Part shown: positions 1 to 4,646 of the stretch, piece by piece
How the letters are laid out: each line of letters starts with the position of its first letter
How positions within the stretch are numbered: position 1 is the stretch's first letter
Assembly (NCBI GenBank): GCA_001803565.1
Contig: MHDQ01000309.1
Coordinates: 1-5,145, forward strand
Source: Nitrospinae bacterium RIFCSPLOWO2_12_FULL_45_22
Lineage (GTDB): Bacteria > 2-12-FULL-45-22
Direction: 5' to 3'
Length of the DNA: 5,145 bases
Notes under the pieces: model-generated
The model's input: the letters and a program-made list of their open reading frames with translations, nothing else
Database searches by the model: none
What the model was told of the DNA's origin: nothing
Translations under genes and position numbers: made by a program

Positions 1-991
1 CACCCAAGGCGCCATAGGCCCCCCGTACCAGATTAAGCTCTATCTCCCGGGCAGCAAACTGCCGGCCACCAACCACAGTATTGATCCTCAGGCAAAGAGA
101 CTCTTTATTCTTTGCCCCAAACCACTCCTGCAATATCTTGGCCCAGAGACGGCGGGCGGCACGGAACTTGGCTGCCTCATGAAAGAAGCGATGGGTAGAC
201 TTAAAGAAGAAGCTTACCCGGGAAGCAACCTGGTCTATATCGAGTCCACGGCTGAGCAACTCTTCAAAATAGGCAATAGTATCCGCAAAGGCAAAGCCTA
301 TCTCTTGGGCCGCCGTAGCCCCAGACTCGTTATAAAGGACACCCCGGATATGCAAAGGATAAAACTTGGGCAGATGCTCTATGCAATAAGAGACAATATC
401 ACCCATGAGCCGCAGAGATGGCTTAGGCGGGAAGACCCAGAGGCCCCGGCCCACATATTCAGACAAAATGTCATTGTTAGTCGTACCGGTAAGGCTGGCT
501 AACGGTACACCCTGCTTCTCGGCAGTTGCTATATACATTGCCATCAATACTATTGTTGAAGAGACGGCATTATTGACCGAGACCGGGGTTCGATCCAGAG
601 GTATACCCTGGAACAGAATCTCCATATCCCGTAAGGTATCAATAGCTAGCCCGACCCGGCCTACCTCGTCTTCTACTAGCGGATCATCGGAAGCAAACCC
701 TAATTGGGTGGCTAAATCAGTAGCCATACTTACTCCATGCTGGCCACTAGCCAGGAGGGCCTTCCATCGGGCATTAGTCTCTTCGGCGGTACCAAAACCG
801 GAATACTGACGCATAGACCATAGCCTACCTCGATACATCTTAGGATAGATACCACGGGTAAAGGGATATTCGCCCGGAAGGCCCAGGTCGCGGGCATAGT
901 CTAATCCCTCGATATCTTCTGGGGTATAAAGGGGTTCTATCTCTGTGTCTAATTCCGACCCAGGGTTGATTGTTTTGGCCTTATTTTCCAT
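1..991 (-). CDS. Methylmalonyl-CoA mutase-family acyl-CoA mutase, atypical active site (5' part, cut by window edge)
   Basis: The first 330 residues of an adenosylcobalamin-dependent acyl-CoA mutase are visible; the rest of the catalytic barrel and any B12 domain lie outside the window. Family hallmarks, in order, are YPFTRGIYP (42-50), MYRGRLWSMRQYSGFGTAEE (52-71), AIDTLRDMEILFQGIPLD (116-133), NDILSEY...R (173-182), VFPPKPSLR (186-194), ATAAQE (225-230), RVSFFF (258-263) and AKFRAARRLWAKI (274-286). By my alignment to the Propionibacterium shermanii enzyme, Tyr89, Thr195, Arg207, Arg283 and Ser285 are kept (Y63, T170, R182, R258, S260). His244, Tyr243, Gln197, His328, Gln330 and Trp334 are replaced by L219, V218, N172, N304, V306 and R310. 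The SMTMN loop becomes a one-residue-longer SVNNAV. The family is certain, but carbon-skeleton rearrangement of methylmalonyl-CoA itself is not. It could be a mutase for another acyl-CoA or a non-catalytic paralogue. The start is the ATG at 991 with a strong GGGGAGGAGG just upstream. It overlaps the small ORF at 981-1154 and is likely translationally coupled to it. Confidence 0.93.
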   Translation of the reverse strand, partial: MENKAKTINPGSELDTEIEPLYTPEDIEGLDYARDLGLPGEYPFTRGIYPKMYRGRLWSMRQYSGFGTAEETNARWKALLASGQHGVSMATDLATQLGFASDDPLVEDEVGRVGLAIDTLRDMEILFQGIPLDRTPVSVNNAVSSTIVLMAMYIATAEKQGVPLASLTGTTNNDILSEYVGRGLWVFPPKPSLRLMGDIVSYCIEHLPKFYPLHIRGVLYNESGATAAQEIGFAFADTIAYFEELLSRGLDIDQVASRVSFFFKSTHRFFHEAAKFRAARRLWAKILQEWFGAKNKESLCLRINTVVGGRQFAAREIELNLVRGAYGALG

Positions 992-3056: not shown

Positions 3057-4646
3057 TTAAGCTAAAGGTGGGTTGGGTTCTACCAATGGCAACTGTATCC
3101 TGAAACGGGCCCCTTTCCCCACGTCTCCTTCTACCTGGATAGTTCCTCCATGATTAGTTATGATACGATAACAGGTGGCAAGTCCAAAACCAAAACCGCT
3201 CTCTTTGGTAGAAAAACGGGGTTCAAAGATCTTTTCCCGAATATCCTCCGGGACACCGGGGCCTTCATCGGTCACTGAAATATCTATAAATTCTTCCCCT
3301 GCCCGGGTCTCTACCTTTATCTTACCCTTTTTCTCCATGGCATCAACGGCATTATTAAAGAGATTAACAAACACCTGCTCCATCTGGTGAGTATCTGCAG
3401 CTATTGAAGGGAGAGGCTTATCCAGGGAGAGAAGGAACTCTATGTCGTTGTACTTGTCCTCCGGTTTTAAGAATTCTAGAGTCTTTGCTATTACCTCATT
3501 GATATCGCATTCAACTTTACGGCTCTCTACCCTGCAGAACTCCATAAGGCCGGTTACGAATTTTACCATTTTCTCAAGATATTCTCTCATATAATTGACA
3601 TAGTATAAGGCCTTTTCCGGATTGGACTTGATAAACTCTGGAAGCAATTGGACCCGCATAAATATACCAGAGAGATAATTATTCAGCTCATGGGCAATGG
3701 AGGCAGACATTTCTCCTATGGCGGCTAATGACTCATTGGTTCTTTCCAGTTCTGCTATTTTTTGTTTTAAGTCTTCATATAGATGGGCATTTTCTATGGC
3801 AAAGCCAATCTCTCCCAGGAGGGTCACGAGAAAGGCCAAATCTTCTCTATCGAAAGGGGCTTCATCTTCTTTATCGGCTAGGTTCAAAACTCCAATTACC
3901 CTGTCTTTTACCCTAAGAGGGACACTGATAAAGGATGCAGTTCTATATTCCGAACGTTTTCTCTGTAAGAACCGGCTATCTTTTTCAATATCAGTCACAA
4001 ATATTGACTTTTTCTCTTTTATTACTTTACTTACTGCACTATCTTCGATTTTTATCTTTGTCCCCTTCAATAAAGGTTCGCTATGTCCCTTAGAGGCGCC
4101 TATGCGCAGATACTGCCCGTCAGGATCTACTAGCATTATAGAGCCAACCCTGGCTTGTAATACATCCATAGCCCTCCTCAATACTGCATCCAGTAACTCA
4201 TCTATGCTAATCATCCTACAGGAAAATTCTGTCAGTTCATTCAGGGTTACCAACTCTCTTACTCTTTTATTTAGCTCCTGGGAACTTTCTCTGAATTGTG
4301 CCAGTAGTACATTAAAAGAATTGGCTATTTCTGCTAACTCGCGGCTTTCTCTACCAATGGCTAATTTGTCTATCTTTCCAGTGACTGCTTCTCTTGCTTG
4401 ATTAGCTACCAGCATTATCTCATCGAAGGCCTGACGTAATAAAGTTAAGCCAAATAAAGAGAAAAGGAGAAATACTAAAATAGGAAACTTAAAATTTTGA
4501 AAGGCCTCATATGATATTAGTTGGTGTTCATAGAGAATATAGATAAGAAATAAATTAGGTATGATAAGGACAAGGGAGAATACTATGGCTAGCTGGTATC
4601 TAACGGATTGTCCTTTTATAGAGGGCTGGAAAACTGAGTTCACCAT
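3057..4646 (-). CDS. Membrane sensor histidine kinase (2 TM, HAMP, GAF, HisKA, HATPase_c)
   Basis: The 529-residue kinase should autophosphorylate on His and pass phosphate to a response regulator, none of which is encoded in this window. Hydrophobic segments at about 17-39 and 54-72 enclose a loop of only about a dozen residues, too short for a periplasmic sensor domain. A HAMP linker follows (about 73-125, with ELAEIANSFNVLLAQF), then a coiled coil (about 118-140) and a cytoplasmic GAF domain (about 145-290, including the SVPLRVKDRVIGVLNLADK core), probably the true sensor. A second helix leads to the H-box IGEMSASIAHELNN with phospho-acceptor His319. The ATPase domain shows the N-box (Asn428, Asn432), the G1 box DEGPGVP (460-466), the F-box IFEPRFST (473-480) and the G2 box GFGFGLA (484-490), so catalysis looks intact. 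The ligand is unknown. The ATG at 4646 is preceded by GGGAGGG with a 5-base spacer, supporting this start. Two pieces of this gene recur near 997-1085 and 1457-1524. Confidence 0.95.
   Translation of the reverse strand: MVNSVFQPSIKGQSVRYQLAIVFSLVLIIPNLFLIYILYEHQLISYEAFQNFKFPILVFLLFSLFGLTLLRQAFDEIMLVANQAREAVTGKIDKLAIGRESRELAEIANSFNVLLAQFRESSQELNKRVRELVTLNELTEFSCRMISIDELLDAVLRRAMDVLQARVGSIMLVDPDGQYLRIGASKGHSEPLLKGTKIKIEDSAVSKVIKEKKSIFVTDIEKDSRFLQRKRSEYRTASFISVPLRVKDRVIGVLNLADKEDEAPFDREDLAFLVTLLGEIGFAIENAHLYEDLKQKIAELERTNESLAAIGEMSASIAHELNNYLSGIFMRVQLLPEFIKSNPEKALYYVNYMREYLEKMVKFVTGLMEFCRVESRKVECDINEVIAKTLEFLKPEDKYNDIEFLLSLDKPLPSIAADTHQMEQVFVNLFNNAVDAMEKKGKIKVETRAGEEFIDISVTDEGPGVPEDIREKIFEPRFSTKESGFGFGLATCYRIITNHGGTIQVEGDVGKGARFRIQLPLVEPNPPLA

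Follow-up and report, generated by a model that had tools for sequence, protein, structure and literature searches.

A methylmalonyl-CoA mutase-like large chain without the catalytic histidine, and a basic residue that may stand in for it

The locus and an orthologue

The window (the whole stretch of DNA analysed here, 5145 bp) is an entire contig of a fragmented 3.67 Mb assembly, and its features are collected in Table 1. The mutase reading frame begins with an ATG at 991 and is read for 330 aa up to the contig end, beyond which its 3' part must lie. Two stretches upstream of it (1003-1085 and 1454-1524) are 83% and 94% identical, in conserved order, to parts of the GAF/histidine-kinase gene further along the window (3967-4049 and 4481-4551), and as judged by this likeness they are what is left of another copy of that gene, most of which has been deleted.

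Table 1. Positions in the window of genes and of active-site codons discussed in the text
Feature	Position	Strand	Basis
Mutase large-chain gene, methylmalonyl-CoA mutase (MCM)-like, 5' part (330 codons)	2..991	minus	ORF; PF01642; TIGR00641
Y63, equivalent to Tyr89 of MCM, kept	803..805	minus	1REQ alignment
R182, equivalent to Arg207 of MCM, kept	446..448	minus	1REQ alignment
R216, at position 241 (Ser241 in 1REQ), proposed replacement contact	344..346	minus	alignment
L219, at position 244 (catalytic His of known mutases)	335..337	minus	1REQ alignment
GDSL-type lipase/esterase gene, signal-like N-terminus	1642-2967	plus	PF00657
GAF/histidine-kinase gene, resembled in part by both stretches upstream of the mutase gene	3057-4646

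The predicted protein comprises the first 330 residues of an MCM large chain, a scaffold that a previous sequence-only reading of this DNA had already recognised: it matched profile positions 6-317 of 512 of PF01642, the acyl-CoA mutase large chain family, with 375.8 bits (cut-off 22.1; E 4e-112), and TIGR00641 with 388 bits, above the cut-off of 303.8. All its HMM matches were to models of the MCM/isobutyryl-CoA mutase (ICM) type. Among sequences of solved structure, the best match was to 2-hydroxyisobutyryl-CoA mutase (HCM; 4r3u, 5e-82), and human MCM was also among the best solved relatives. A search of the assembly for the missing 3' end gave no C-terminal mutase fragment matching the gene, and searches for its operon and small subunit gave no LivG match at E 1e-40 and no close orthologue of the B12-binding subunit (best only 53-54% identity); the sole unpaired B12-binding gene seen in the assembly is on contig C7, and there is none on the window contig, which ends inside the large-chain gene. 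The scan for promoters and terminators yielded nothing usable above chance.

A full-length orthologue of 535 aa, 79% identical over 326 codons, is encoded on contig JAUXHQ010000118.1 (hereafter L020) of the deltaproteobacterial MAG CSMAG_2959. Since this genome was not one of the two available for the phylum of the window, the gene may have been transferred laterally or its contig misbinned. Directly after the L020 mutase gene comes one for a B12-binding protein of 129 aa, whose DxHxxG motif is intact (DSHDRG); a B12-binding domain nearby was among the things that the sequence-only reading had advised looking for. Further on are a pair of ABC-transporter ATPase genes, of which the first has a branched-chain amino acid C-terminal domain, and an AMP-binding gene of the acyl-CoA synthetase type. 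On the 5' side are a DUF169 gene and uncharacterised ORFs, and there is no second mutase large chain beside L020. No Rfam family was found in the window or in L020, and hence no cobalamin riboswitch. An AlphaFold model of the L020 protein (mean pLDDT 82) had HCM and MCM as its nearest solved folds (1.8-2.1 Å over about 520 residues), with Z scores of 50 for HCM (4r3u), 49 for the MCM alpha chain and 36 for MutA beta chains.

Replacements in the active site

In known mutases His244 and Gln197 contact the thioester carbonyl of the substrate, and in MCM Tyr89 and Arg207 form the carboxylate clamp. Residue numbers are those of 1REQ (chain index + 1), taken from an alignment that also contained HCM and more than 100 relatives. 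The clamp is kept, which sets the protein apart from isobutyryl-CoA and 2-hydroxyisobutyryl-CoA mutases (Phe or Ile at 89, Gln at 207), and Arg283 (R258) and Ser285 (S260) are retained too. Position 244 is Leu, and Phe117 is replaced by T91, Gln197 by N172, Tyr243 by V218, His328 by N304, Gln330 by V306 and Trp334 by R310, so that neither of the two contacts to the thioester carbonyl is present. All of this had been read from the letters alone and stood up on the 1REQ alignment, which is ungapped around position 244, so that no His can be shifted into it. In L020 the same sites are replaced, but with Ile (I215) where the window protein has Leu244 and with Ala in place of Val at 330, and its residue 285 is Thr. 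The extra residue previously noticed around VSVNNA is real: it is added just after this motif (after strand 3), is common to the window protein and L020, and is absent from the other relatives listed.

The sequence-only reading had also taken the changes to be clustered at the active site, and this was not upheld: when columns with a conservation of 95% or more in canonical MCMs were compared, changes had occurred in 8 of the 19 on our own list of active-site columns and in 23 of 76 elsewhere (Fisher p 0.41). Its view that the gene is not simply decaying nevertheless holds, on the strength of purifying selection and conservation and not of clustering. Between the window gene and L020, dN is 0.128 and synonymous differences are saturated (pS 0.77; pN/pS 0.15), and a dN as low as 0.13 with saturated synonymous sites indicates purifying selection.

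The clade and its basic residue at position 241

In a 103-row tree, the window protein and L020 lie within a 13-row group (SH-aLRT 99), and in a 38-row tree from which column 244 had been removed they lie within a 12-row group (support 97/94); mapping the sites on a superfamily tree, which had been suggested as a check, thus places the pair in a small supported clade, the inner branch order of which is rough, as the bootstrap had yet to converge. Also in the clade are L142-L148 (Ile or Leu244, with Tyr89 and Arg207), L005 and L132 (Asn244, Phe89, Lys207), L030 and L031 (Ser244, Phe89, Gln207) and, in the 38-row tree only, L171:9040-10746, which has kept His244 and has Ala241. Just outside the clade, L124 also keeps His244, and His328, Gln330 and Trp334 are gone from it. 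The retention of His244 in L171 and L124, in the latter case without the other three residues, suggests that the active site was remodelled stepwise.

We draw attention particularly to position 241, which the sequence-only reading overlooked and which is Ser in most enzymes with His244. Arg or Lys is found there in 14 of the 14 clade rows that lack His244. None of the 123 rows with His244 has either, the residue being Ser, Ala, Cys, Thr, Val or Gly, nor has any of the 32 rows outside the clade that are without His244; since L171, with His244 and Ala241, nests inside the clade, this pairing stands for perhaps one to three evolutionary events, and not for 14. In the window protein there are bulky residues at both 239 (His) and 241 (Arg) of the same strand, which, from strand parity and the known fold of MCM, would face the CoA channel; in the L020 model, the corresponding DSSP strand (206-212) ends at position 241 (R212). 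From the pairing of a basic 241 with the loss of His244, and from this orientation, we hypothesise that Arg241 replaces the His244 contact. As a general statement about the clade this is put forward tentatively, and with rather less than even odds: these would be B12-dependent mutases in which the function of His244 has passed to an Arg or Lys located three residues before it in the same barrel strand, so that hydrogen bonding and protonation would follow another mechanism and anaerobic bacteria would have a previously undescribed carbon-skeleton rearrangement. Literature searches, for which most subscription papers were out of reach, gave no account of acyl-CoA mutases without His244, and among plasmid records there were no relatives more than 60% identical to the sister enzyme.

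The surroundings of the sister genes give some indication of pathway. L149, L151 and L154 each have a single cluster with an HMG-CoA-lyase-like gene, a butyryl-CoA:acetate-type CoA-transferase gene, the mutase gene and one or more acyl-CoA dehydrogenase genes. In L149 and L151 there are additionally genes of the MaoC type, for AMP ligases and for TRAP-type transporters, and a B12 small subunit gene is part of the cluster in L149 and L154 (the B12-binding genes of sister loci having the motif DGHDRG). No second mutase large chain was found beside those genes of the L142-L148 type (Ile/Leu244) whose neighbours were read. The genes of these clusters fit a pathway in which a branched carboxylic acid is taken up, activated with CoA, rearranged in its skeleton, oxidised, hydrated and finally cleaved, though any particular acid would be a guess.

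Mutase genes of this general kind can be abundant. The 1.9 Mb MAG that contains L020 has 26 PF01642 matches, and in most of its large chains position 244 is not His but Asp, Asn, Val, Phe or Ile: a large and unassigned radiation of mutases. Genome G000 has 13 PF01642 matches, and genome G033 has 18 matches to the window protein. In genomes of Desulfotomaculum/Peptococcaceae type, L075, L076, L077 and L078 have MCM-like large chains arranged two by two in tandem, each member of a pair having Asn244. On contig C286 of G000 (L015:273-4605), two B12-binding small-subunit genes lie between a pair of MCM-like large chains, one with Glu and the other with Asn at 244. On contig C318 of the same genome (L013), the clade relative L005 and its B12-binding gene are near two HGD-D genes (of the 2-hydroxyacyl-CoA dehydratase/benzoyl-CoA reductase type) and genes for a glycyl radical enzyme, which reached no NCBIfam cut-off, and its activase. 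In G567 (L171:8603-16897), two MCM-like large chains, both with His244, and a B12-binding gene are accompanied by what appear by eye to be CaiB-type, MmgE/PrpD-like and crotonase-like genes.

Proposed function and comparison with known systems

The explanation that we favour, with a probability of roughly 0.6, is an adenosylcobalamin-dependent acyl-CoA mutase of two subunits. The gene would encode the catalytic one, a TIM barrel that binds the substrate, and the B12 domain would form the other, a small protein of its own such as the one encoded beside L020. The substrate would probably be the CoA ester of a substituted malonic- or succinic-type (branched or substituted dicarboxylic) acid and not methylmalonyl-CoA, because the Tyr89/Arg207 clamp has been kept while His244 and Gln197, together with Phe117, His328, Gln330 and Trp334, have been remodelled. 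Arg241, just below on the same barrel strand, would hydrogen-bond to the thioester carbonyl in place of His244. Of the two possibilities raised by the sequence-only reading, a changed substrate is thus favoured, by the B12-binding gene accompanying L020 and by the catabolic acyl-CoA operons of the sister clade, and a non-catalytic partner is not supported. Points against the favoured explanation are the truncation of the window gene with no B12 gene on its contig, the few events behind the 241/244 pairing, the 32 rows that lack both His244 and a basic residue at 241, and the strong impairment of the H244A form of the Propionibacterium shermanii MCM (the mutant structure 1e1c was among the matches), which loses most of its activity.

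The same impairment weighs on the idea of an ordinary methylmalonyl-CoA mutase able to do without His244. The clamp and the exclusively MCM/ICM-type HMM matches would agree with that idea, but as many as seven contact positions have been altered jointly, and both orthologues show the alteration; moreover, the genome of the window encodes a separate canonical MCM chain (L002) and MeaB, so that the paralogue is not needed for methylmalonyl-CoA, and we consider the idea unlikely. We judge about equally unlikely a mutase acting on something other than a CoA thioester, or with a migrating group other than COSCoA, for which His244 and Gln197 would be dispensable: the loss of both carbonyl contacts, and the bulky side chains at 239 and 241 on a strand whose parity would have it line the CoA channel, could be accommodated in this way, but the AMP ligase in the L020 cluster, and the CoA-transferase and acyl-CoA dehydrogenase genes beside sister mutases, imply CoA esters.

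Still less probable is a non-catalytic partner chain, with the role that MutA has beside MutB in P. shermanii. The absence of His244 and Gln197 would agree with it, but in L020 a single large chain is followed by its own DxHxxG-type B12-binding gene, the substrate clamp is retained, the TIGR00642 (MutA model) match of the partial window protein is weak (110 bits, with a cut-off of 617), and the modelled fold is much nearer to catalytic chains than to MutA. A more specific reaction can be imagined for the sister clade, namely dimethylmalonyl-CoA to methylsuccinyl-CoA, or 2,2-dimethylsuccinyl-CoA to 3-methylglutaryl-CoA, followed by an acyl-CoA dehydrogenase, a MaoC hydratase and an HMG-CoA-type lyase, with the window enzyme performing a related step. 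The genes for these enzymes adjoin each other in L149 and L151 and partly in L154, the lyase of which scores 263.4 bits with the HMG-CoA lyase subfamily model, above its cut-off of 246, but gene order is the sole source of this suggestion and the lyase and MaoC genes are not seen at the window and L020 loci, so that it too must be rated improbable. Returning to the favoured explanation, a lineage that has dispensed with His244 but has a cofactor partner, the substrate clamp and a gene under strong selection offers a way to test whether the chemistry itself requires this His, or only one class of substrates does.

To our knowledge, few acyl-CoA mutase reactions have been characterised, and all known catalytic chains retain His244. 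HcmAB (4r3u) is similar in having a large chain and a separate small B12-binding chain, and is the top match both in PDB sequence and in fold (1.8 Å over 520 residues), but HCM has His244, Gln197, His328 and Gln330, with Ile89 and Gln207, where the window protein has Leu244, Asn197, Tyr89 and Arg207. MCM (1req, human MMUT) shares with it the fold, the clamp, Arg283, Ser285 and Arg326, but not the seven replaced residues, and in L020 the B12 domain is unfused. IcmF has a fused G domain and B12 domain, whereas the L020 protein carries PF01642 alone. MutA, the non-catalytic beta chain of MCM, likewise has an MCM-like fold without the catalytic His, but the clamp is retained in the window protein, and its relatives have no partner large chain alongside, such as the MutB adjacent to MutA. 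Finally, benzylmalonyl-CoA mutase (IaaGH) of indoleacetate degradation, a mutase of substituted malonyl/succinyl-CoA in anaerobic metabolism as described in PMC8360864, offers a precedent for the proposed type of substrate.
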